From IMG/VR virus record IMGVR_UViG_3300032246_000475, positions 1 through 26,297 of that record: a DNA stretch of 26,297 nt. One strand, written 5' to 3'. This DNA is from a virus. Within the stretch, counting starts at the first letter, position 1, and each line of letters opens with the position of its first letter. The position numbers and the translations under genes were made by a program. The notes under the pieces are model-generated. The model was not told where the DNA came from. It ran no database searches and saw nothing but the letters and a program-made list of their open reading frames with translations. Positions 3,151-26,297 of the stretch are shown piece after piece.

Positions 3151-3711
3151 ATGGAATTCCCAAATTGGTTTGAAGGACAGAAGTATAATTTTGAAGAACA
3201 TCTTGAAAGATATAAAGGTCTACCTAATCTAAAGTTTTTACAACTTGGTGCATACACAGGTGATGCAAGTGAATGGTTATTAACTAACATACTAACTGAC
3301 CAATCTTCTACTTTACTTGACGTAGATACTTGGGAAGGTAGCGATGAAGCAGAACACAAGTCTATTAATTTTAGTAATGTATATGAGTTCTATAAGAAAC
3401 GAATGGAACCCTACGCAAATATGCGTTCAGTAAGAAATAATACTGAGAACTTTTTGCGTAGCAATAAAACAATTTATGATTTCATTTATGTAGATGCTAA
3501 CCACACAGCCAATGCTGTTGCATCTGATGCTGAGTATTCTTGGGAACTATTAAAGAAGGGTGGCATCCTTGCCTTTGATGATTATATGTGGGGTCAAGAT
3601 ATGAAACCTGAACTCACACCTAGACCAGCCATTGATAACTTCCTTGAGTTCCACGAGGGTGAGTATAATATTTTGACTAAGGAATACCAGGTTTGGATTG
3701 AGAAACTATGA
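3151..3711 (+). CDS. Class I SAM-dependent methyltransferase
   Basis: This 186-aa protein has a Rossmann-type methyltransferase layout. A glycine-containing motif I (LQLGAYTGDASEWL, about residues 30-43) should bind S-adenosylmethionine. An acidic strand end (LLDVDTWEG) follows, then YDFIYVDANH (about 110-119) and KKGGILAFDDY (about 135-145). This resembles the Methyltransf_24-like group often seen in phages and sugar or small-molecule modification loci. The substrate is not evident; there is no DNA-methylase NPPY or DPPY motif, so DNA modification is unlikely on sequence alone. It starts after a strong GACAGGAG site, and its stop overlaps the helicase start (ATGA). Confidence 0.85.
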   Translation: MEFPNWFEGQKYNFEEHLERYKGLPNLKFLQLGAYTGDASEWLLTNILTDQSSTLLDVDTWEGSDEAEHKSINFSNVYEFYKKRMEPYANMRSVRNNTENFLRSNKTIYDFIYVDANHTANAVASDAEYSWELLKKGGILAFDDYMWGQDMKPELTPRPAIDNFLEFHEGEYNILTKEYQVWIEKL

Positions 3712-12959: not shown

Positions 12960-14828
12960 ATGGGTAGAAAACCTGGGATTCAAAACATCCCAAAGGGCGA
13001 AGCCCAAGAGAAAGTTCTGATTCAATTAGGACAAGGTTCTACCATTACTGCCGCTATGGCAGCCGTTGGACGAAATGATGTAACCTTCCGCCAATGGTCA
13101 ATGAATGACCCTGAGTTTAAAGAACGTGCTGACAAAGCCCGCCTTCAAGGCAAAGGGGTCATAGCAGACCTAGGTGATTTAAAGAATATCTCCTATCCTG
13201 ACTTCTCAGAACAGTTCCTAGATACCACGCTCTTTCCACACCAACTAAACTGGTTGGACTTAATTGAGGGCAAAGAGCCAAGATGGCAACCTAGCGGTAT
13301 GACTTATGAGCCAGGTGACCCAAAACGTATTTTGATTAACGTGCCACCTGAGCACGCCAAGTCCACAACTATTACAACCAACTATGTCCTCTATAACATA
13401 GTTACCAATCCTAACTCTAGAGTAATCATTGTCTCTAAGACTCAGGGTATGGCAAGAAAATTCCTTGGTGCGATTAAGACTCGTCTTAGCCACCCAGCCT
13501 ATATCAAACTCCAGACCGCATTTGGTCCTAATGGCGGATACAAGGCTGATGCAACTCAATGGTCAGCCGATATGATTTATCTAGGCACAGGTCGTGATTC
13601 TGGCGAAAAAGACCCAACGGTCCAAGCCCTAGGATTTGGTTCCCAAATCTACGGTGCTCGCGCTGACTTGATTGTTCTAGACGATGTTGTGATGAACTCA
13701 AATGCCCACGAGTGGGAGAAGCAAATTGAATGGCTTCAAAAAGAAGTTATCACGCGCTTAGGGCGACACGGAAAACTGCTTATAGTAGGAACCCGTGTCG
13801 CGCCTATTGACCTTTATAAAATGATTAGGGACGGCGGACAATGGACAGGTGGTAAGACACCTTTCACCTACTGCGCTATGCCAGCGGTTCTAGAATTTGA
13901 TGAGAACCCTGACAACTGGAAAACGCTCTGGTCTAGAACCAACATCCAAGAAAATGATATTGACGAAAAAGGCGAAGATGGCTTATACCCAAAATGGGAT
14001 GGACCCTCACTCTTTAAGAGAAGGTCTGAAGTTGCTCCGTCAGTCTGGGCTATGGTCTACCAACAAGAAGATGTTGTTGAGAACTCAATCTTCTCACCCA
14101 CTTGTATTGCAGGTAGCGTCAACGGAATGCGTAAACGAGGACCTCTCAAACCTGGGGTTCCAGGACATCCAAAAACCGCAGACCAACTCTACACTGTTAT
14201 CGGACTTGACCCTGCTATGGCTGGGGCAACGGGAGCAGTAGTAGTAAGTTATAACAAGTCTGATGGCAAGATATATGTTTTAGATTGTATCAATATGACT
14301 GACCCTTCTCCAGCCAAAATTCAAAATCTTATTGAAGACTGGGTTGAACGTTACAAGCCCCAAGAAATACGAATTGAAATCAATGCTCACCAGAAGGCTT
14401 ATGCCCTAGACGATGAGTTAAGAAACTATTTGGCTTCTCGCGGTTGCCAACTAAACTCACACTTCACTGGTAAAAATAAATGGGATGTTGGTTTTGGTGT
14501 AGCATCTATGGCTGCATTATTTGGTAACACTAGAGATGGTCGTTTCCAAGATAACAACTTAATTGAATTACCTAGTAATGAAGGCTCCGAAGGTCTTAAG
14601 ACACTAGTGCAAGAATTAATTACTTGGAAACCTGATACTAAGAACCCTACAGACTGCGTTATGGCTTTATGGTTTGCCGTCATCAGAGTGCGAGAATTGA
14701 TGCAACAGAGAACCAAAGTTAGTGGATATGCTTCAAACCGTTGGGCGACAAGAGCACAGATGAACCAACGTATGACCGTAAATTTAGATGATGCTTTCGC
14801 CGAACAATGGGCGCAACAATACAGTTAG
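12960..14828 (+). CDS. terL: Terminase large subunit
   Basis: This 622-aa protein is the DNA-packaging motor. The ATPase domain has a variant Walker A, PPEHAKST (residues 129-136), and Walker B LIVLDD (237-242). The C-terminal RNase H-like nuclease has GLDPAMAG (Asp417), a RIEINAHQ strand (Glu473) and NPTDCVMALW (Asp565). The first 65 residues look like a helix-turn-helix (ITAAMAAVGRNDVTFRQW), as in small terminase subunits. No separate small terminase is seen, so that function may be fused here. AGGG lies 7 nt before the ATG. It opens the late operon. Confidence 0.93.
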   Translation: MGRKPGIQNIPKGEAQEKVLIQLGQGSTITAAMAAVGRNDVTFRQWSMNDPEFKERADKARLQGKGVIADLGDLKNISYPDFSEQFLDTTLFPHQLNWLDLIEGKEPRWQPSGMTYEPGDPKRILINVPPEHAKSTTITTNYVLYNIVTNPNSRVIIVSKTQGMARKFLGAIKTRLSHPAYIKLQTAFGPNGGYKADATQWSADMIYLGTGRDSGEKDPTVQALGFGSQIYGARADLIVLDDVVMNSNAHEWEKQIEWLQKEVITRLGRHGKLLIVGTRVAPIDLYKMIRDGGQWTGGKTPFTYCAMPAVLEFDENPDNWKTLWSRTNIQENDIDEKGEDGLYPKWDGPSLFKRRSEVAPSVWAMVYQQEDVVENSIFSPTCIAGSVNGMRKRGPLKPGVPGHPKTADQLYTVIGLDPAMAGATGAVVVSYNKSDGKIYVLDCINMTDPSPAKIQNLIEDWVERYKPQEIRIEINAHQKAYALDDELRNYLASRGCQLNSHFTGKNKWDVGFGVASMAALFGNTRDGRFQDNNLIELPSNEGSEGLKTLVQELITWKPDTKNPTDCVMALWFAVIRVRELMQQRTKVSGYASNRWATRAQMNQRMTVNLDDAFAEQWAQQYS

Positions 14829-15104: not shown

Positions 15105-16886
15105 ATGGCATTAGGTATTCAAGAGATAGTCGTGAGAGTTCAATCTCTCAGAGGGCGCAATGCCGAGCGCGATAAGCGCAACAAAGATGTCCTAGCCGTC
15201 CGTCAAGGTAAGATTTCTGACGTTTATCCAAACTTCTTTCCAGATGGTATTGATGCAAACGTAGTAGCAAACTTCATTGATATTGTTGCTCGTGACCTTT
15301 CAGAAGTAATGGCTCCACTTCCAGCAATCAACTGTTCAGCGGCTAACTCAGTTAATGACCGCGCTCGCAACTTTGCTGACAAGCGCACCCGAATTGCATC
15401 TAACTACTTCCAGCACTCAGACCTTGCAGTCAATATGTATCAAGGTGCTGACTGGTATATCACATATGGTTTTATCCCATTCATAATTGAATTGGATGAA
15501 GAAGCAAAACTGCCACGTATCCGCATAGAAAATCCTATAGGGGCTTACCCTGAATTTGACCGCTATGGTCGTTGCGTTGCTTTTGTTAAGTCTTACAAGA
15601 TGTCTATAGCAGAACTTATTGCTCAATTTCCAGAATACGAAACACAGTTGCTTGACAGAAATAAATTCTCAACAAGCCTTAATTCTGAACTTGAAGTAAT
15701 TCGCTACTATGACAAAGACCAATCAGTCATCTATGTGCCAACAAGAAACAACTTAATGCTTTCACGCGCTAAGAATCCTCTTGGTAAGATGATGGTTGTA
15801 GTTGCCCGTAAGCCATCTATTGATGATGAACTTCGTGGACAATTTGATGATGTCCTTGGTATCCAACTTCTACGCAACCGCTTTGCATTGCTTGCAATGG
15901 AAGCAGCAGAGAAGTCTGTCCAAGCACCTATCGTCCTTCCTCAAGATGTTCAAGAATTTGAACTTGGTGGAGATGCGGTTATCCGCACAAACAATCCAGC
16001 AGGTGTCCGCCGTGTAGAACTATCAATTTCTCCAGCGGCACTAAATGAATCAACACTACTTAATCAAGAACTACGTGTTGGTGCTCGTTATCCTGAATCT
16101 CGCACAGGTAACGTCAATGCCTCAATCGTCACAGGACAAGGCGTTCAGGCTCTTATGGGTGCATTTGATACCCAAGTTAAATCTGCTCAAGCAATCTTTG
16201 CATCAGCATTGCGTGATGTAATTAATACTTGCTTTGAAGTAGATGAAAAATTATTCCCAGCAGAAAAGACTATTCGTGGCGTTGACTCTGGTTCTCCTTA
16301 CGAGGTAACTTATCTACCTTCTAAAGACATCAAGGGTGATTACTCATCTGATGTTCGTTATGGAATGCTCGCTGGTTTAAATCCAGCCCAGGGTCTTATC
16401 TTTATGTTACAAGCACTTGGTGGAGGTTTAATCTCCAAAGATATGGCAATGCGTGAACTTCCATTTACAGTTAACGTAACCCAAGAACTTGAAAAAATTG
16501 AAACAGAGAAGATGCGTGATTCGCTTCTTAACTCTATAAGTGCATTGACTCAAGCCATTCCAACAATGGCTACACAAGGTCAAGATGTTTCCGACATCGT
16601 TCTAAAGATTGCTGAAGTAATCAAGGCTCGCCAAAAGGGACAAGCATTGGAAGATGCTATCGGAGAAGCCTTTAAACCTAAGCAACAAGTTCCTCCTACT
16701 GGAACTGCTGCACCTATGGTTGAGCAACCGTCCCCTGCTCCCAGCACTGGTCCAGTAGGAGGCGCTCCTTCACCTGAAGGCGCAGCACCTATGGCAGCAC
16801 CACAAACTCCACCAGATATTCAATCAATTTTATCTAGTTTAAGTTCATCTGGAAAAGGCAACGCAAGAGTAGTAACTAAAGGCTAA
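15105..16886 (+). CDS. Portal protein
   Basis: This 593-aa protein has the size, position and feel of a tailed-phage portal. The N-terminal region has NFIDIVARDLSEVM, then a beta-rich stem containing RIENPIGAYPEFDRYGR, then helical wing and crown segments. The C-terminus is a Pro/Ala/Gln-rich tail (about residues 530-575). Portals form the dodecameric ring through which DNA enters and leaves the head. The assignment follows from the terminase upstream and capsid genes downstream as well as the fold-like pattern. AGGACAGC precedes the ATG. Confidence 0.85.
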   Translation: MALGIQEIVVRVQSLRGRNAERDKRNKDVLAVRQGKISDVYPNFFPDGIDANVVANFIDIVARDLSEVMAPLPAINCSAANSVNDRARNFADKRTRIASNYFQHSDLAVNMYQGADWYITYGFIPFIIELDEEAKLPRIRIENPIGAYPEFDRYGRCVAFVKSYKMSIAELIAQFPEYETQLLDRNKFSTSLNSELEVIRYYDKDQSVIYVPTRNNLMLSRAKNPLGKMMVVVARKPSIDDELRGQFDDVLGIQLLRNRFALLAMEAAEKSVQAPIVLPQDVQEFELGGDAVIRTNNPAGVRRVELSISPAALNESTLLNQELRVGARYPESRTGNVNASIVTGQGVQALMGAFDTQVKSAQAIFASALRDVINTCFEVDEKLFPAEKTIRGVDSGSPYEVTYLPSKDIKGDYSSDVRYGMLAGLNPAQGLIFMLQALGGGLISKDMAMRELPFTVNVTQELEKIETEKMRDSLLNSISALTQAIPTMATQGQDVSDIVLKIAEVIKARQKGQALEDAIGEAFKPKQQVPPTGTAAPMVEQPSPAPSTGPVGGAPSPEGAAPMAAPQTPPDIQSILSSLSSSGKGNARVVTKG

Positions 16887-16903: not shown

Positions 16904-17446
16904 ATGACAACAATTATAGGTATAGAACATAAAGACGCTGCATTTATTGTTGCCGACAGTCAAGTAACTGATGATAATGGCAAAATATATTCACATCCTA
17001 GTGTTCAAAAGATTACCGAACGTGGTCCATATTTAGTTGCTGGTTCAGGAGAAGTTCTTCCTTGCGATGTAGCACAACATATATGGGAACCACCAATACC
17101 TACCAAGGTTGAAAAAAAAGATTTGTATCATTTTATGATTGCAAAGGCTATGCCCTCGCTTCGTAAATGTTTATCTGAAAATGGTTATAACTTTGATGAA
17201 GATAATAAAGAACTTAGGTTCCAATTTATTATCGCCATTGGGGGCGAAGTATTTGACATAGACCAAGAATGCTCAGTATCTAAAACTGAACACGGAGTCT
17301 ATGCAGCAGGTTCTGGAGCAGCGTATGCACTTGGTGCATTACACGCTGGCGCTGATGCTTATGAAGCAATGGAAATTGCAAGCAAATTAACAGCATTTAC
17401 AGCGGGACCTTATCTATCTAAAACACAACCAAGACATATTAAGTAG
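16904..17446 (+). CDS. HslV/proteasome-beta-like Ntn-hydrolase
   Basis: This 180-aa protein begins MTTIIGIE. Removing Met exposes Thr1, as in HslV and 20S proteasome beta subunits, with no propeptide. Other active-site positions are present: Asp17 (mature numbering) in VADSQVT, Lys35 in SVQKI (equivalent to Lys33 with a two-residue insertion) and GSGAAYALGALHAG near the C-terminal half. Length matches HslV (about 175 aa). These enzymes form ring-shaped threonine peptidases. It sits directly after the portal, where tailed phages usually carry the head-maturation protease. No HslU ATPase is visible. A strong GCAGGGGACA precedes the ATG. Confidence 0.82.
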   Translation: MTTIIGIEHKDAAFIVADSQVTDDNGKIYSHPSVQKITERGPYLVAGSGEVLPCDVAQHIWEPPIPTKVEKKDLYHFMIAKAMPSLRKCLSENGYNFDEDNKELRFQFIIAIGGEVFDIDQECSVSKTEHGVYAAGSGAAYALGALHAGADAYEAMEIASKLTAFTAGPYLSKTQPRHIK

Positions 17447-17454
17447 GAGGAACA

Positions 17455-17886
17455 ATGGCTGAGAATCGTGGGGGCTTTCGCCCAACAGCACCACAGAATA
17501 ACCCAGCAAATGTTTCTGGCACTGGCGGAGCAGGACAATCTGGGACACAACCAGCACGTTATATTTCTGGACTTCCATATGGTGAAGGACAAGCAACAAT
17601 GTCACAACAACAAGGTGCTCCTATGGTTGGACCAAATACACCATCTTCATCTTCAGCAAATCCAATGGCAGCAATGCTTGCTCCAGTAACACCTTTATCT
17701 GCTCCTACAGAACGTCCAAATGAACCAATTACAACAGGTATGGACTTTGGTGCTGGACCTGGAAGTGAAGCCCTTAATTTGCCACGTGAACGCACGTTGT
17801 CTGAAGTTCTTTCATCAATGATTGATATTGACCCGACTGGAGAAGTTCAAGACCTTTATAACTTCGTTGCATCACGAGGTCTTTAA
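17455..17886 (+). CDS. Hypothetical low-complexity head-module protein
   Basis: This 143-aa protein is Gly/Pro/Gln/Ser-rich and likely disordered over residues 1-110. A short ordered C-terminus follows: NLPRERTLSEVLSSMIDIDP and LYNFVASRGL. A strong GGAGGAACA precedes the ATG. It lies between the Ntn-hydrolase and the giant protein. A substrate, scaffold-like or adaptor role is conceivable, but no family is recognised. Confidence 0.65.
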   Translation: MAENRGGFRPTAPQNNPANVSGTGGAGQSGTQPARYISGLPYGEGQATMSQQQGAPMVGPNTPSSSSANPMAAMLAPVTPLSAPTERPNEPITTGMDFGAGPGSEALNLPRERTLSEVLSSMIDIDPTGEVQDLYNFVASRGL

Positions 17887-20800
17887 TGATTGAACCAAAA
17901 AAATATTTAACTGAGATTGCTCAGTCTGCGCCTGGCGTAGCCACAGCAGCAGCACAAAAAGGTTTGCAAAAAAATGAAACTAGTAAGATTGCTGCTCTTG
18001 TAACACTTCGTAATACCCATAACGAACTTACTTCGCTTCCGCAAAATGAAGCCTATAAAAAGTATCAAACAATGGATAAACCAACACGAGATGCTTTGGC
18101 AACTATGTTTAGTCCAAAGTATATTCAACAAGATAGAGGTCTTGTTGGAAATATTTTAAATTCAATTAAAACTTCCGTGTTTTATGGTGGTGGTTCTGTC
18201 ATTGATATGGCAAAACAAATTAATCAACTTAGCGGTCCATTGGGTTTGCCTACAGAAATTGGCAAAGGAATTGTCGGTGGTATTTCAAAAGAAATACAAA
18301 AAAATGAGGCTGTTGGAAAAACTTCAAAAGTTGTTGGTGCAGCAGCAGAACTTTTAGTTCGCCCACAAGACAAACTCATTAAACAACCTTATATTGCTGC
18401 ACGACTTGCCGCTGCCGATGGTGCTAATGGTTTTGAAGCATTTGGTAAATATGCTGCAGAAGGTTTTAAAGAACTTCTCCCTGGTGGAGATGATGCTTTG
18501 CCAACAGATAATTCAACTTCATTTATGAAATATTGGGAACAAGCATCTAACCCTCAAAATGTTTTTGATGAAGAGGCTGTAAGCAAATTTAATAATGAAC
18601 TTACTCCTGCGGCATCATACTTGGGTCGTTTACTTGCATCCAAACAAGATTTAGTTGACAACTTTGATAAGTTCCAAGATAACCCTGGAGTTGTTGACCT
18701 TGTAAATCGTTACATTGCTGGCGATAGCAAGGCTGGAATAGAAGTTGCCAATGCTGTAGCGCGTTTTGAAAAGGCTAAGATTAGTCCTGGACGCGATTAT
18801 GCTCGCACAATTGTTGATTTGTTTCCACACGAAGCCGAAAAAGCAATTATGGGTGACGGCGCAGCCAAAGCATTCTTTACTTTGCTATCGGCTCCAGTTG
18901 ATTTTAGCGTAACCTTTGGCTTAGACCCATTAATTATTGGTGGCAAAGTCCGCAGAGGCTTGATGGTAGCCAAGTATGGTTTCTTTAAAGTTGGCGAAGG
19001 TAGCATTTCTATTGAGAAAGCATTTTCTCGTCCAAAAGTTCGTGCCTATTGGGATGAGGCTGGTAAATTAGTTGAAACTTTCCGTAATGGTGATTTGCCC
19101 ACAAAGGCTCAGGCTCTTAATCGTCTTCAAGACCGATTCCCTGAAATCAATATTAACGTAGTCCAAGATTTAGCCAAGGCAGATGTTCGTAATGCAAATG
19201 ATGCTTTGCAATTCTTTGATAATGGTGAGCGTTTTACAAGTATGTTGTCTGGCAAAGTTGGTTTTGCTGGCAAAGATACCTTGATTCCACGTATGACTTT
19301 TGCTCGTGGTCTTGCTAATGATGCTAGAGATTTAGTATCTAAAACTTTAGGAACAGAACGTTATTCAAATCTTAAAACAATTAAAAATGACAAAGATTTT
19401 ATTGCACAATTTACTGATAGTCCTGAAGTTTGGGCTGGAAAATTAGGTTTTGAAAAAACTGGTTTAATTTATACAGCAAAAGATAAATCTATGATGGCAA
19501 AGATTGATAGAGTTACACGTCAGTTTGCTATTGCCCCTACTGCTGATAGAGTAATCAGTATTGCTGATGGCTCAAGCGCCAATCAAATTTTTAAACTAGC
19601 ACGCACAGTTCTTGACAAAACTTCTGCTGGTTCATTTAGAGCAGTATGGTTATCAGCCGATGAAGGCGAACGCTTACTTATGTTCAAGGGTTTATTAAAG
19701 ACCCTAGGTGTAGGTATGGGATTAAACCTATCTAATGAAGGTCGCTTAGCACTTTCAAAAATTGATGATATGTCCCGTGAAATTTATTCTGTTAGTCAGA
19801 GTTCACTTGATATTGGTGACCTTGCAGATGTTCTCAAAACCGCCAGAGGCGGAATGGCTACAGCACCAAAAGGTGTTCGTGCAAAAACTCAAGAGGCTAT
19901 CTCATCTGTAAATGCAGAAGGCAAGGCTAATAGACTTATCGCTTCTGTCAACGCTAAAGTTGGAGAATACGTTGAACGTTTAAAAGCCCTAAAGTCTGAT
20001 AAAAAAGATGCAATAGCAGCGGGAGATGAATTACGCGCTGGGGCTATTGATGATGAAATTAAAATTGTTGGAGCAAAACTTGGACGTGAATTAAAGTCTA
20101 AGAAAGAACTTAAAGCAACAATGGGTGAAGTTGATGAAGCGAATCTAGAACTTCCTAATGAATTTGATATAAGTCTTGACCGCTTCAATGCTGGTCAGAC
20201 TCTTGATGGAACACCTCGCGCTATTCGTCAATATCAACTAGATGACTATCGTTCTTTGCCAGACTTCTCTCAATGGCGTGAGATTGCCCAACGCGGTGGA
20301 GTAGTTACAGAATTATTTGGTCGTGCTACAAACAACCATTATAGTAAAATGATTACTGATGGTTGGTCATTCATAAACCTATTTCCACGTCTAGGTCTTC
20401 GTTCATCCGTTGAAGAAGTTGGAATGTTTGGAATCATTGGTGGAGCCGAAGGCTTTGGTTACTATCTAAAAGGTCGCTTGGCATCACGTGAACTTCGTGC
20501 AGCACGCCCTGCTGGAATTAAGACAACTGTTTTTGGAAATGAAAAGACAGATAAAAACCTTGGTTTTATCTATGATACCTTATTCAAGGTAACAAAAAAA
20601 CATTACTCTAAAGAACAATTGCTTGCAATGGCTGATAATCCTGAATTATTAGGTCGTGCTGTTGCGGACTCTATGATTAAAAATAAGTTTAAACCACAGT
20701 TTTTGCAAACAAAGGCTGGCGAAGATATTGCAAATTGGTCAGGAGACTTTGCTGAGTTTAATGGCAGAGTTGTTCTTGATGATATAAATGGTTCTTCAGT

Positions 20801-23177
20801 TCGTGCAGAACGTCCAATTACTGAAGCAGAAGAAATTTCTAACTCTTTAAAACAATTTGGTCCGTCTGTAAGACTTAATGTGCAAAACCAAGAGGCTTTA
20901 AAAGGTATGACCTTTAAGCCAGAGTTTACTGAAATTGCTAATACAAATGATAAATTTATTTTTAATTGGTTGCTTGAATTAAATAATACAGTTGGCAAAC
21001 GCAATGGTCAATTTGGCAATATAGTTCTTTGGAACATTGGCAAAAAACCAAAAGATGTTATTTCTAAACTTGTTGAATACATTGAAGGTCCTGGCAATGA
21101 TGTTGCTAAACGATTTGCAATCTATGGAGAACAAGGTGCTGAAGGTTTAGCAAATCATATTTATCTTGATGCTACATATCCACTGCGTGATTATGCTGGT
21201 CGCATTAATATGGACCTTGTAAATGGTATCCGCAATAAAGGTGGTATGGAAAACTTTACTCTTGAAGACCTTACTAAACTAGATAAACCTTATGCTCGCC
21301 CAGAATCTATTCTTGGACGTGAGATTGTTCCTCTTGGAGCACCTACCGCAGAGCAAAGTATTTACCGAGTAATTAACTCAGGATATGGTTGGGTTGGAAA
21401 GCAGATTGCTTTGCTTGACAGAGAACCTATCACTCTTGGAAATTACTTTATGTTCCGCAAGCAACTTAAGGGAACTCAAGAAGCAACTAAGAAAAACTTG
21501 CTTGCTCAAGGTATGTCAGAAGAAGGTGCTGATTCAATCGCCCGCTTCTCTACACACGAAACAGCAATGAATTTAGCACGAAACAGAACTCTTGGTTTTG
21601 TTGATAATGGTGATGTTCGCACAAATTTGGCTTATAGCCTAAGAACACTTGGTCGTTACTACCGTGCAACTGAAGATTTCTATCGCCGTCTTGGTCGTGT
21701 TGGCAAGTATGAAAAACGAGCAATAGTTCGTCTTGCTATCCTTAACCAAACTTTTGAAGACTCTGGATTTATTCATAAAGATGACAGAGGGCAAATGTAT
21801 TTCACTTATCCTAGTGATGATTTATTCACTGGAGTAATTTCAAATACTATGTCAAAAATGGGTTTAACACCTTTAACTCCATTGCCAGTTAACTTTGGTG
21901 GATATGTAAAGATGTTAACACCATCTCTTGACCCAGAATCAAACTTACCACGTTTATCAAACCCATTTGTATCTTTGGCTTTAGATGGTATGACAAATCT
22001 TCCATATATTGGAGAGTATTTAACTGGTGTTGAAAAGACACTTACTGGTGCATATAACACTGATATTCCTGCTTGGGAAAAAGCAGCACCAGTAAACATA
22101 AAAAGAGTTTATAATTTTCTGGCTGGAACTACACAAGGCACAGAGTCAAGATTTTCATCAGCAGTAAAAGCAATTAAACTTCTTGTATCTACTGGAAATG
22201 GTCCAACAAAGTCATCTGACCTTGAATTATTTTATCAGAATGTAGCAACTCAAGCAAGAAACGTAGACCTTATAAAATTAGTTATGGGTCAAGTTTCTAT
22301 TGCTTCACTTCAAACATTTGGAAATAAAGATATTCCAAAAGAATTAAAAAATTCTGGAGTATTTACTTGGGATTCTGAATTTCAAAAGTTTATGAAAAAG
22401 TTTGATGGAGACCCAGAAGCCTATTCAAAGGCTTATGTTCAGTTTGCTAAACTGTATCCATCTAAGGCTATTTATGTAACTAGTGCAACAGACACTACAA
22501 CATATGCAAGTTTTCAAAAAACTATTGAAGCAGAAAATTTTGTTCGCAAGAATCAAAAATTACTTGTTGAGCACTCAGATGCTGGTTCATTCTTTATACC
22601 AGTTTCTGGAAAGACAGATATTAATGCTTATACTTACTTAAAGAAAAAAGGGTTTATTTCAAACAAGCCTCTTGACCCAAAAGTAGCAACAGGAAAAGAA
22701 AACTTTATTCGCCAAGTAGCAACATCCGAGGCACGTCAAACTTACTACGCTTTAAATGACGAATACAATGCCAAGATTGCTGCAGCAGGTGGACCAAAGG
22801 AAAGACAGTATTGGCGTAATGAATTAACTACTCGTAAAAATGGTTTGCTTATTGCTTACCCACTATTGGGTGTTCAAGTAAGCCCTACTGCTGAAAGCAA
22901 TGCTCGTAGAATTGAAGTCATTGATGATATGAAGGCTCTTATTAGGGAAAATAAAGCCCCTAGTAAAGACCTTGCAGATACTTTTGCATCAATGATTAAT
23001 GAATATGAAAAGATGAACTCAAGTTTATCAAGAGTGAAGAGTTCTACTAGGGCAGCAGATGCCTACAAAAAGAATCTCAGGGCTGATACAAAAGATGTTA
23101 TATTTAAACTGTCCCAAAGCAGTCCAAATGCAACAACATTTTTTAATTCAGTTATTGACCCATTGATAGGAGAATAA
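17886..23177 (+). CDS. Giant virion-associated protein (1763 aa), unknown
   Basis: The largest gene of the window starts at an ATG sharing one base with the preceding stop (TAATG). It is soluble, alternating helical and mixed segments, with no strong membrane helix. A charged coiled-coil-like stretch lies at about residues 655-755 (VGEYVERLKALKSDKK and following). No catalytic motif is recognisable by eye. Its place between portal and capsid, and its length, suggest an internal or ejected virion protein. A tape-measure role is possible but is not the usual position. A few segments (GINPRL-like NLFPRLGLRSS) recall polyvalent phage proteins, without proof. Confidence 0.55.
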   Translation: MIEPKKYLTEIAQSAPGVATAAAQKGLQKNETSKIAALVTLRNTHNELTSLPQNEAYKKYQTMDKPTRDALATMFSPKYIQQDRGLVGNILNSIKTSVFYGGGSVIDMAKQINQLSGPLGLPTEIGKGIVGGISKEIQKNEAVGKTSKVVGAAAELLVRPQDKLIKQPYIAARLAAADGANGFEAFGKYAAEGFKELLPGGDDALPTDNSTSFMKYWEQASNPQNVFDEEAVSKFNNELTPAASYLGRLLASKQDLVDNFDKFQDNPGVVDLVNRYIAGDSKAGIEVANAVARFEKAKISPGRDYARTIVDLFPHEAEKAIMGDGAAKAFFTLLSAPVDFSVTFGLDPLIIGGKVRRGLMVAKYGFFKVGEGSISIEKAFSRPKVRAYWDEAGKLVETFRNGDLPTKAQALNRLQDRFPEININVVQDLAKADVRNANDALQFFDNGERFTSMLSGKVGFAGKDTLIPRMTFARGLANDARDLVSKTLGTERYSNLKTIKNDKDFIAQFTDSPEVWAGKLGFEKTGLIYTAKDKSMMAKIDRVTRQFAIAPTADRVISIADGSSANQIFKLARTVLDKTSAGSFRAVWLSADEGERLLMFKGLLKTLGVGMGLNLSNEGRLALSKIDDMSREIYSVSQSSLDIGDLADVLKTARGGMATAPKGVRAKTQEAISSVNAEGKANRLIASVNAKVGEYVERLKALKSDKKDAIAAGDELRAGAIDDEIKIVGAKLGRELKSKKELKATMGEVDEANLELPNEFDISLDRFNAGQTLDGTPRAIRQYQLDDYRSLPDFSQWREIAQRGGVVTELFGRATNNHYSKMITDGWSFINLFPRLGLRSSVEEVGMFGIIGGAEGFGYYLKGRLASRELRAARPAGIKTTVFGNEKTDKNLGFIYDTLFKVTKKHYSKEQLLAMADNPELLGRAVADSMIKNKFKPQFLQTKAGEDIANWSGDFAEFNGRVVLDDINGSSVRAERPITEAEEISNSLKQFGPSVRLNVQNQEALKGMTFKPEFTEIANTNDKFIFNWLLELNNTVGKRNGQFGNIVLWNIGKKPKDVISKLVEYIEGPGNDVAKRFAIYGEQGAEGLANHIYLDATYPLRDYAGRINMDLVNGIRNKGGMENFTLEDLTKLDKPYARPESILGREIVPLGAPTAEQSIYRVINSGYGWVGKQIALLDREPITLGNYFMFRKQLKGTQEATKKNLLAQGMSEEGADSIARFSTHETAMNLARNRTLGFVDNGDVRTNLAYSLRTLGRYYRATEDFYRRLGRVGKYEKRAIVRLAILNQTFEDSGFIHKDDRGQMYFTYPSDDLFTGVISNTMSKMGLTPLTPLPVNFGGYVKMLTPSLDPESNLPRLSNPFVSLALDGMTNLPYIGEYLTGVEKTLTGAYNTDIPAWEKAAPVNIKRVYNFLAGTTQGTESRFSSAVKAIKLLVSTGNGPTKSSDLELFYQNVATQARNVDLIKLVMGQVSIASLQTFGNKDIPKELKNSGVFTWDSEFQKFMKKFDGDPEAYSKAYVQFAKLYPSKAIYVTSATDTTTYASFQKTIEAENFVRKNQKLLVEHSDAGSFFIPVSGKTDINAYTYLKKKGFISNKPLDPKVATGKENFIRQVATSEARQTYYALNDEYNAKIAAAGGPKERQYWRNELTTRKNGLLIAYPLLGVQVSPTAESNARRIEVIDDMKALIRENKAPSKDLADTFASMINEYEKMNSSLSRVKSSTRAADAYKKNLRADTKDVIFKLSQSSPNATTFFNSVIDPLIGE

Positions 23178-23178
23178 A

Positions 23179-24111
23179 GTGGCAGGTAGTTATCAGGATA
23201 AGGATGGCGATGGCAAAGTCGCTTGGTATCCAGACCCAGCAATGCCAAATGAAAAACCTCCACGTGGGCAAGATAAATCTAAAGTTGAAACTTCAGGGTC
23301 AGATACTACACAAACAAATTCTGGTCAACAAGGTGGCACTGTTGGATTTCAAGAAGTCCCTATAAACTTACCTAACTCTTCTTTGTCATCACAAGGAGAA
23401 ACTAAGGCTGAAATAACCGAAGCCTTTTCCTCAATGTTTGGCGATAATGTTCCAAAGGAAATTGCTAGCGCATATTACAAAGAACTTAATGCTTTACAAG
23501 CATCTCGTAATACTAAACCTGTAACTAAAGGTGGAATTGATTACGTAACTCAGGGTGTATCACCACAAGAACGCAAAGATATTCTTAACAAATATCTTAA
23601 TCAATATGCAACAGTAAAAATCACAGCAGCCGCCAATGGCGATGCTAAGGCAATTGCTGGATTGCAGCGTGGGAATTTTGGTGTTGCTTTTACAACGTTA
23701 AAGAACGCATATTCAGATAATGGTATTTCATATAACTTAAAATCAATAGCACAACTTGCTAGTGAATCAGCCATTAATCCTGACAGATTAAAATCAAATA
23801 TTAACTTAATTAATATCCAGGCTAAAACATTATTTCCAGCCCTTTCAGAAAAAATTGATGCTGGATATACAGTTAAACAATTGCTTAATCCTTACATCCA
23901 GGCTCGTGCAAATATTTTGGAAGAAGACCCAGATATGGTTGATGTAAAGACTCTTTCCAGTGTAGCAAAAGACCCTAAGAATTTAATGGGTTTGTATGAT
24001 TATGAAATTTCATTGCGTCAAGACCCTAAGTGGAGGTTTACTAAGAATGCTCAAGACACACTTAGTAATGTCGCTTCGGGTATTGCCAAGACCTTCGGAT
24101 TGTTGGGATAA
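23179..24111 (+). CDS. Hypothetical virion protein with EF-hand-like N-terminus
   Basis: A 310-aa protein is read from a GTG behind AGGAG (6 nt). The N-terminus contains SYQDKDGDGKVAWYPD, a D-x-D-x-D-G loop (Asp7, 9, 11) as in calcium-binding EF-hand or Excalibur motifs. A disordered Ser/Gln/Gly linker to about residue 60 and a helical body follow. Co-transcription with the giant protein suggests a structural or ejection role. No family is recognised. Confidence 0.6.
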   Translation: MAGSYQDKDGDGKVAWYPDPAMPNEKPPRGQDKSKVETSGSDTTQTNSGQQGGTVGFQEVPINLPNSSLSSQGETKAEITEAFSSMFGDNVPKEIASAYYKELNALQASRNTKPVTKGGIDYVTQGVSPQERKDILNKYLNQYATVKITAAANGDAKAIAGLQRGNFGVAFTTLKNAYSDNGISYNLKSIAQLASESAINPDRLKSNINLINIQAKTLFPALSEKIDAGYTVKQLLNPYIQARANILEEDPDMVDVKTLSSVAKDPKNLMGLYDYEISLRQDPKWRFTKNAQDTLSNVASGIAKTFGLLG

Positions 24112-24113
24112 AT

Positions 24114-25286
24114 ATGGCTGCTAAACCAAATACAACTGCCCCTTTAGAGGATATAGGTTTTATAAATGCTGCTAAAGCAGCAAAGGCTCCAACAACAGTT
24201 ACTGGAGTTGGACCATCACAAACACCTGAACTTACACCAGCGGAAGAAAGACTATTCGGTAGATATGTAAATCCTGCTGGAGAAATAGTTCCTGGAACAA
24301 GACCAACTACACCTGCTGCTACTCCTGTTCCTGCAGCAGTGCCTAATGATAGACCTACCACTGATACTCCGATGTCTGGCGCTAAATTAGATTCTATTGC
24401 TGCTATTAAAGCATTAATGTCTTCATATGGTATTGGTGATTTAACAGATGCTATTACTAACTCTGTAATAAAAGGATATTCATCTGACACTATTCAACTT
24501 ATTATGCAAGACCCTAACAGTGCAGACCCATTAGCAGTAGCATTCCAAAAGAGATTTCCAGCAAATAAAGTCCGAGCAGCGGCAGGTAAATCAGTGCTTA
24601 GTGCAGCAGAATACTTAGCAGCAGAGCGTTCATATACTCAAGTGTTGCAATCATATGGTGTTTCATCTATGGCTAGTAAGGAAAAACTTAGTCAATTTAT
24701 CTCTAATGATATTTCAGCAGCAGAAGTTTCAGACCGTGTAGGTCTTGCTGTTAATCGTGTGCAAAATGCAGACCCTGCAACAAAGAAGATGTTGGCTGAA
24801 TACTATCCAATGCTTAATCAAACAGATATTATTGGTGCAGTTTTAGACCCAGCAGAAGGATTACCTGCACTACAACGCAAAATTCAAATTTCAGAAATTG
24901 GCGGAGCAGCACTTGCTCAAAACCTTACAACTGGAATTAAAGCAGCAAGTGACCTAAAGACTGGTTACACTGGATTGACAACTGGTTCAATGGGCGCTGA
25001 AGACCTAGCAAACTTAGGTGTAACTAAAGAACAAGCCCGTGCTGGATACCAGCAAGTGGCAGAACTTGCACCACGTGGAGAATTCCTATCAAGTATTACA
25101 GGTGGAGAAGATTATACTCGTCTTCAGGCTGAACAAGAAGCATTTCAAGGACTTGCATCTGCAAAGAGAGCAAGGGTTAATTTAACTCAATCAGAATTAG
25201 CACGCTTTGGTGGTCAATCAGGAACATCAAAGGGAGCATTCTCTACAGGATACCTAAACCGCCAAGGTAAATCAGGCGCGTTCTAA
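24114..25286 (+). CDS. Hypothetical structural-module protein
   Basis: This 390-aa protein has a Pro/Thr/Ala-rich N-terminus (to about residue 95), then a helical alanine-rich body and a Gly/Ser-rich C-terminal tail (GGQSGTSKGAFSTGYL). GGGATAA is a weak ribosome site 2 bp after the previous stop. It is co-directional with head genes and probably virion-associated. No function is recognised. Confidence 0.6.
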   Translation: MAAKPNTTAPLEDIGFINAAKAAKAPTTVTGVGPSQTPELTPAEERLFGRYVNPAGEIVPGTRPTTPAATPVPAAVPNDRPTTDTPMSGAKLDSIAAIKALMSSYGIGDLTDAITNSVIKGYSSDTIQLIMQDPNSADPLAVAFQKRFPANKVRAAAGKSVLSAAEYLAAERSYTQVLQSYGVSSMASKEKLSQFISNDISAAEVSDRVGLAVNRVQNADPATKKMLAEYYPMLNQTDIIGAVLDPAEGLPALQRKIQISEIGGAALAQNLTTGIKAASDLKTGYTGLTTGSMGAEDLANLGVTKEQARAGYQQVAELAPRGEFLSSITGGEDYTRLQAEQEAFQGLASAKRARVNLTQSELARFGGQSGTSKGAFSTGYLNRQGKSGAF

Positions 25287-25294
25287 ATAGAATC

Positions 25295-25376
25295 CTACGT
25301 GACCCACCAGCCCACGTAGCGTAGAAGACTGGTAGCAAGAGCCAGACCGATTCCCCGATTGGGACCTGTGGCTTGC
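25295..25376 (+). promoter_or_regulatory. Structured leader before the scaffold gene
   Basis: CTACGTG/CACGTAG (25295-25301, 25313-25319) forms a 7-bp hairpin. A second stem, GCAA-GCCA with TGGC-TTGC (25335-25344, 25369-25376), encloses TCCC-GGGA. It ends about 14 nt before the scaffold ribosome site. There is no T-run, so a leader, processing or partial termination role is more likely than a strong terminator. Confidence 0.45.
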
Positions 25377-25405
25377 GATTCAAACGAATAGAAGGGTGGG
25401 TTGCT

Positions 25406-25885
25406 ATGAGCAACAACTACTGGGATGAAGACGAAGACGAACTAGATACCGACACTGATGTGCAAATGGACGGAAGTGACTTACTTAAAAAGTTACGTAA
25501 AGCCAAGCGTGCAGACGAAAAGCGTATCAAGGAACTTACTGAGCAACTTGAGGGACTATCCAAGTCGCAGCGTGAGCGAACAGTCAAAGAAGTCCTAGAA
25601 AAGAAAGGTGTCAATGCAAAGGCGGCACGTTTAATTCTTAAAGATATTGATGATGTTAGCGAAGAATCAGTTAATCACTGGCTTGACGATAACGCTGAAT
25701 TGTTTGGAATTAAAGTAGATACGCCAGAGCAACAAGTAGATGAAACTAACAGAGCAGCCTTGCGTCAGCAAGATGCAGTTACTACAAATGCTTTCACCTT
25801 TGACCGAATGGAAGATATAAATATGAAGATTGACAATGCGGATTCTATGGACGCATTGTTAGACATTCTCCGTTCACAAAATTAA
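25406..25885 (+). CDS. Probable capsid scaffolding protein
   Basis: A 159-aa protein starts at ATG 25406 behind AGGGTGGG; an in-frame TTG upstream would add 11 residues through the ribosome site and is rejected. The N-terminus is very acidic (DEDEDELDTD), then a Lys/Arg/Glu-rich coiled coil (KKLRKAKRADEKRIKELTEQ), then a helical C-terminus ending LLDILRSQN. This layout and position immediately before the major capsid gene fit a scaffolding protein that guides procapsid assembly. It may be a substrate of the Ntn-hydrolase. Confidence 0.75.
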   Translation: MSNNYWDEDEDELDTDTDVQMDGSDLLKKLRKAKRADEKRIKELTEQLEGLSKSQRERTVKEVLEKKGVNAKAARLILKDIDDVSEESVNHWLDDNAELFGIKVDTPEQQVDETNRAALRQQDAVTTNAFTFDRMEDINMKIDNADSMDALLDILRSQN

Positions 25886-25921: not shown

Positions 25922-26297
25922 ATGGCAAACGCCTATACAACAACAGGCTCTGGCTCCCTAGGAGGCACAGCAGGTGGCGCTGGTCTAGTCCAGAAGGCAT
26001 ACGACCGTCTTCTAGAATTCGCTCTCCGTTCTGAACCACTTATTCGTTCAGTCGCAGACAAGCGTCCAGCAAAGCAAGCAATTCCAGGTTCAACAGTAAT
26101 CCTACAACGTTACCAAGACCTAGCAGCAGCAACTTCTACACTAACAGAATCATCTGACCCAGATGCAGTAGCACTGTCTACACCAACATCTGTAACCATT
26201 ACTCTTGCAGAGTATGGTAACTCAGTCCTTGTTACACGTGCTTTGGAACTATTCAGCCTTGCTGACGTAGACCCAGCAATTGCTAACATTATTGCGT
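25922..26297 (+). CDS. Major capsid protein, N-terminal part (runs off the window)
   Basis: The frame is open from ATG 25922 to the window end (125 codons). It has the strongest ribosome site seen here, GGAGGTGA at 5 nt. The sequence has a Gly/Thr-rich N-arm, a helix (LVQKAYDRLLEFALRSEPLI) and beta-rich text with TLTESSDPDAVALSTP and YGNSVLVTRALELFSL. This resembles the N4-gp56-type HK97-fold capsid proteins. Position after the scaffold gene supports it. Confidence 0.82.
   Translation, partial: MANAYTTTGSGSLGGTAGGAGLVQKAYDRLLEFALRSEPLIRSVADKRPAKQAIPGSTVILQRYQDLAAATSTLTESSDPDAVALSTPTSVTITLAEYGNSVLVTRALELFSLADVDPAIANIIA

Follow-up and report, generated by a model that had tools for sequence, protein, structure and literature searches.

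A proteasome-family peptidase or an unrelated small protein occupies a fixed portal-adjacent slot in a group of phages

The virus record analysed in this work (26,297 bases, hereafter the window, whose end falls within the capsid gene) encodes a proteasome-family peptidase directly downstream of its portal gene. In related phages, this portal-adjacent slot holds either the peptidase or an unrelated protein of 72-79 residues, named here s75, and never both. The reading that we favour, with a probability of about 60%, is that of an accessory peptidase of late infection or assembly that is catalytically competent, probably independent of an unfoldase, replaced in its slot by s75 in related phages, and not an obligate maturation protease. 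Proteasome homologues of phages have been known since 2021, when Fuchs, Alva and Lupas described the Group I proteasome homologues PPH, AAH and CPH in phages, in a survey that reported neither a genomic context nor a partner indicating their function and that found AAH in no actinobacteria-specific phage (PMC8665760). The fixed slot beside the portal gene and its either/or occupancy are new.

Results

The portal-adjacent gene encodes a peptidase of the BPH/HslV kind

The open reading frame lies on the plus strand at 16904-17446, exactly where the original prediction had placed it, and encodes from an ATG start a protein of 180 residues with the N-terminus MTTIIGIEHKDAAFIVADSQVT. The product passes the curated cut-off of the Pfam proteasome family PF00227 (23.3 versus 22.4 bits) and matches phrog_1040, annotated as 'peptidase HslV family', over residues 1-169 (7e-29). 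When a profile of 53 relatives was searched against the PDB, the beta-proteobacterial proteasome homologue BPH came first (1.1e-10), before HslV (3e-8) and the 20S beta subunits with weaker E-values. An AlphaFold (AF2) model built from the alignment of the relatives reached a mean pLDDT of 91 with strands and helices in the expected order, and a Foldseek search with it ranked BPH (5ovs, 3.8e-11) ahead of HslV and 20S beta, with a probability of 1.00 to all three; the best viral structure match was a phage protein named HslV. The modelled monomer contains helices H1 to H4, residues 51-60 and 70-92 being helical and the H3 motif being conserved. The initial reading as a proteasome/HslV-like enzyme, for which a comparison of the predicted structure with HslV and 20S beta had been proposed, is thus borne out by an alpha-beta-beta-alpha Ntn-hydrolase fold that lies closest to BPH.

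The gene product is therefore a threonine peptidase of the BPH/HslV kind, although it falls short of each better-known subfamily. It shares its length, its fold, the Thr1/Asp17/Lys33 residues and a GSG motif with HslV (ClpQ) of the HslVU system, but scores only 23-24 bits against the NCBIfam equivalogs of HslV proper (TIGR03692 and NF003964, cut-offs 137-158), and the phage has no HslU. Similarly, it misses the cut-off of the archaeal-type 20S beta subunit (TIGR03634, 24.5 versus 224 bits), and neither Pfam nor PHROG profiles match it to the known prohead protease classes S14, S49, S78/U35 or U9. PPH, with about 140 residues and without helix H2, differs from the window peptidase, in which H2 is present. 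BPH (5ovs, 5ovu), the closest solved relative, forms a double ring that apparently works without an unfoldase (PMC8665760); it is a bacterial protein encoded outside any phage head operon and is 21-23% identical to the window protein in structural alignment, for which a ring is a prediction. Two scans of genome contigs returned no cellular relative of the peptidase. Since connectase, a protein ligase, belongs to the same superfamily (PMC8665760), the enzyme might in practice act as a ligase or amidase, yet the model lacks the S3/S4 insertion and resembles BPH and HslV most overall, which makes such an activity very improbable.

The active site is conserved under purifying selection

The putative nucleophile Thr1 of the mature enzyme is residue 2 of the open reading frame (codon 16907-16909), directly after Met1, while the equivalents of Asp17 and Lys33 are residues 18 (16955-16957) and 36 (17009-17011), the latter being residue 35 of the mature protein. 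The motif GSGAAYALGALHAG (residues 136-149, 17309-17350), at the start of helix H3, contains the invariant positions G136, G138, G144 and A145. The three catalytic residues and the motif had been read correctly from the window alone. Loss of the catalytic residues in homologues, which would have spoken against the first reading, was looked for, and Met1, Thr2, Asp18, Lys36 and Gly49 (the oxyanion residue equivalent to Gly47) were found in 54 of 54 diverse representatives with identities down to 28%. Across comparable pairs, the median dN/dS of the peptidase is 0.147, against 0.116 for the portal protein and 0.635 for the downstream protein p143, which indicates strong purifying selection on the enzyme. 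Invariant catalytic residues together with a low dN/dS make an inactive relic unlikely, and the peptidase is apparently catalytically competent, as judged from its sequence.

The peptidase gene is locked between the portal gene and p143

In the window, all the late genes described here lie on the plus strand. The large terminase subunit (12960-14828, Pfam and PHROG) is followed by a portal protein of 593 residues (15105-16886; phrog_104, 7.1e-28, with SPP1_portal just below its cut-off), the peptidase, the fast-evolving 143-residue protein p143 (17455-17886, phrog_8200), a giant protein of 1763 residues (17886-23177), two more proteins, a scaffold-like protein with weak DUF4355/Gp46 similarity that is encoded separately ahead of the capsid gene (25373-25885) and the start of the major capsid gene (25922-26297), which the window truncates and whose complete homologues belong to phrog_1357/PF13252. 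An IMG/VR search with the window peptidase returned 359 relatives. The survey of related contigs for portal-adjacent copies that the original prediction had called for gave a uniform answer: among the fetched loci of this phage group that leave room for the neighbour, the portal gene lies directly upstream of the peptidase in 160 of 160, typically 15-16 bases away, and p143 lies downstream in 155 of 157, usually at a distance of 9 bases. Moreover, the Shine-Dalgarno sequence of p143 overlaps the stop codon of the peptidase (AAGTAGGAGGAACAATG). These fixed neighbours and the overlap suggest that the genes from portal to capsid, including the peptidase, would be expressed together late in infection. 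A general accessory gene would not usually sit at a site so strictly fixed within a structural operon, which suggests a link with assembly.

From the slot up to the scaffold gene, the stretch with p143, the giant protein and others behaves as a cassette of about 9 kb that can be exchanged while the portal and capsid genes on its two sides are conserved (17455-25286 in the window; 4477-13964 in contig L283, compared with G009).

The position beside the portal gene sets the window apart from other phages that carry the family. Phages of PHROG 1040, such as S114, PBECO4, Geobacillus E3, VpV262 and DSL-LC01, encode a protein with the same profile and catalytic residues, but place its gene outside the structural modules, in nucleotide-metabolism, early or other regions. 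In 12 annotated phage records (the T5-like AAS21 and S114, VpV262, the jumbo phage PBECO4, Geobacillus E3, Microbacterium Pumpernickel, Arthrobacter Hum25, Moorella MTATph1, Psychrobacter D'Alembert, Aeromonas 2L372X, Vibrio 3.058 and DSL-LC01) the surroundings of the gene contain thymidylate synthase, DHFR, RNase H, PhoH, WhiB or genes without an assigned function, and in none is it adjacent to the portal gene. The same slot is used in two cultured 'Ca. Planktophila' phages, LanE43-AprE7 and LanE43-AprF5 (E7 and F5; OX376640 and OX376641; PMC10202952), which differ from the window by a divergent allele (class 2, about 40% identical) followed by an open reading frame of 84 codons.

Four peptidase classes and s75 exchange in the same slot

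Four allele classes of the peptidase were found in the slot, with 122 loci of class 1, to which the window belongs, 70 of class 2, 28 of class 3 and 3 of class 4. Classes 2 to 4 are roughly 28-43% identical to the window peptidase, and the portals of diverse peptidase-bearing loci are 72-78% identical to that of the window. Putative alleles 5 to 7 were discarded as truncated open reading frames. We also considered a separate recruitment of classes 3 and 4 from a phage like DSL-LC01, with which they group in the tree (support 87/89), and did not adopt it because a single clade of all slot classes was not rejected (AU p 0.068). An 84-residue protein with an acidic tail and no clear kinship to s75 lies between many class 2, and some class 1, peptidases and p143 (plus strand; L082:8033-8287, L083:20534-20788 and L283:5010-5264).

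A second set of loci was chosen by portal rather than by peptidase. Among its 78 loci with room for the slot, 73 carry a peptidase, five lack it and none is empty, all five peptidase-free loci holding s75, here of 73-79 residues. Copies of s75 lie, for instance, at L238:7786-8013 and L212:7787-8008 (both plus strand) and in L295-L374. The s75 protein has a basic N-terminus and an acidic C-terminus, is helical in a low-confidence model (pLDDT 71) and returned no family match. Searching IMG/VR with s75 gave 287 relatives, and in the 80 loci fetched from them s75 always follows the portal gene and the peptidase is always absent. Likewise, no peptidase was found on 11 long s75 contigs (36-42 kb) and no s75 on 24 long contigs with the peptidase, these absences being called on metagenomic contigs that may be incomplete. 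They are informative since the same peptidase model detects diverged classes in other contigs; as a positive control of the s75 search, three s75 contigs gave the expected matches. In a quickly built portal phylogeny with 92 representatives, the slot occupant (enzyme classes and s75) changes at least 16 times, and presence or absence of the peptidase switches at least four times.

Such frequent exchange would suit a protease of host takeover or counter-defence that degrades specific host proteins and sits in the late operon by historical accident, as would the early or nucleotide-metabolism location of the family in other phages. In the same vein, the publication that describes the cultured phages E7 and F5 mentions genes for host-protein degradation (PMC10202952), by which the peptidase gene is presumably meant. 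Against this stand the lack of any PADLOC match, a portal-adjacent position that is fixed in all relatives and a late operon that is an odd site for early takeover; we consider this explanation improbable.

Closely related head modules do without the peptidase

The original prediction had the enzyme mature the head, or process the scaffold or the giant protein. As a prohead protease that cleaves the scaffold or the major capsid protein, it would fit its place next to the portal gene in the head operon. It would also fill a gap, as a near-complete relative of 40.4 kb contains no other recognised head protease, in agreement with the earlier observation that no conventional one is visible in the window, which itself stops inside the capsid gene. 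Nevertheless, the 37.5-kb phage G009, which holds s75, is 92.2% identical in its portal, 96.4% in its scaffold and 97.5% in its capsid protein to G022/L283, which has a class 2 peptidase, the cassette between them having been exchanged. No protease was recognised in G009 by Pfam, nor by PHROGs among its head-region proteins. The Beephvirinae, cultured podoviruses of Streptomyces with a 44% identical portal, have the head module and some of the replication module in common with these phages and carry no peptidase in the slot, which contains only small open reading frames without similarity to s75. Furthermore, the capsid N-termini align end to end between phages with and without the peptidase, and no N-terminal propeptide is evident in either kind. 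In well-studied podoviruses, a separate scaffold gene combined with a capsid protein without propeptide requires no protease.

The other proposed substrates fare no better. In L241, an s75 phage, the giant protein is 65% identical over 1248 residues, and p143 about 75-76%, to the homologues of peptidase-bearing phages. Near-identical shells, and a giant protein and p143 retained without the peptidase, argue against the idea that these proteins strictly need the enzyme to mature. Judged from these comparisons, the enzyme is dispensable for the shell (G009) and for the giant protein and p143 (L241), and an obligate role in the maturation of capsid, scaffold or giant protein is not supported. We thus abandoned head maturation as the main reading, in view of G009 versus G022/L283 and of the Beephvirinae, together with obligate processing of the giant protein, in view of L241. 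A head maturation protease now seems unlikely, while a facultative role in maturation may exist.

In Mantel tests, which gave weak and sampling-sensitive correlations, peptidase divergence tracks that of scaffold and capsid after control for the portal with a partial r of about 0.33, a slight point in favour of head maturation, and likewise that of p390, p310 and the giant protein. A special co-divergence with the scaffold, first seen with a partial r of 0.51 (n=29), was given up when a wider sample brought it down to 0.33, where the other neighbours lie too.

The capsid protein occurs in size classes of about 317 and 388-402 residues within one phage group, which only partly track the peptidase class (G001 and L277 compared with L082, L274 and L293).

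No unfoldase partner is encoded nearby

The absence of an HslU or proteasomal ATPase, already noted for the window, holds for the window and the near-complete relative alike, in which the sole AAA-type match is a DnaB/RecA-like replication ATPase. The peptidase probably acts without an unfoldase.

Discussion

Taken together, our comparisons argue for an accessory peptidase that is used late. In the mechanism that we propose, a host methionine aminopeptidase would remove Met1 to expose Thr1, and the subunits would assemble into a small ring able to take unfolded or short substrates without a phage-encoded unfoldase. Expressed late within the portal-to-capsid operon, the enzyme would most likely degrade or trim host or mis-assembled proteins.

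A more specific role can be envisaged, in which the peptidase processes another late protein during assembly, such as the portal tail, p143, an ejection protein or an s75-like factor, the s75 phages managing this step without proteolysis. The strict conservation of the locus, the strict either/or use of the slot, the translational overlap with p143 and the partial correlations with p390, p310 and the giant protein are all consistent with it, but phages with the enzyme and phages lacking it have giant proteins and p143 proteins that are 65-75% identical. In addition, enzyme class and type of giant protein are uncoupled: E7 carries a class 2 enzyme (about 40% identical to class 1), yet its p143 and giant protein reach 73% and 50% identity with their window counterparts; G001, conversely, has an enzyme 83% identical to that of the window and a giant protein without BLAST match to its counterpart. 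We therefore regard dedicated processing as a minority possibility. Since the slot is never empty, s75 could nonetheless stand in for the enzyme at an assembly step. By extension, the slot might serve to control assembly in the phages of dominant freshwater actinobacteria, where peptidase and s75 accomplish the same late step by proteolytic and non-proteolytic solutions that were swapped several times, an idea that we put forward tentatively and think rather doubtful.

As to the phages themselves, relatives of about 40 kb encode a PF13252/phrog_1357 capsid protein and an SU10-type adaptor, pointing to a podovirus-like plan. The window phage very probably infects a freshwater actinobacterium, given the WhiB gene present in the window and its relatives and given that the cultured relatives E7 and F5 infect 'Ca. 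Planktophila'. The modules shared with the Beephvirinae suggest that these and the freshwater phages belong to a common higher group. Within the Beephvirinae, the cultured Streptomyces phages FlowerPower and WRightOn (L257 and L258) have the order of terminase, portal, giant protein and scaffold/capsid as well as primase, helicase and WhiB in common with the group of the window. Two further genes were also noted. A glutamine-amidotransferase-like protein is encoded beside a putative amidoligase near WhiB in G001 (L086:12609-14791, minus strand), and occurs also in G014, possibly forming a peptide-modifying pair. Besides, a methyltransferase-domain protein is inserted in the replication region of the window (3151-3711, plus strand) and, with homologues elsewhere in G009 and G014, looks mobile in the group.

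To conclude, hundreds of contigs from phages of very abundant freshwater bacteria have a proteasome-family peptidase locked in place between the portal gene and the late gene that follows. A protease next to a portal gene need not be a head maturation protease, and caution is warranted when such genes are annotated by position. As the cultured phages E7 and F5 carry the peptidase, its role is directly testable.
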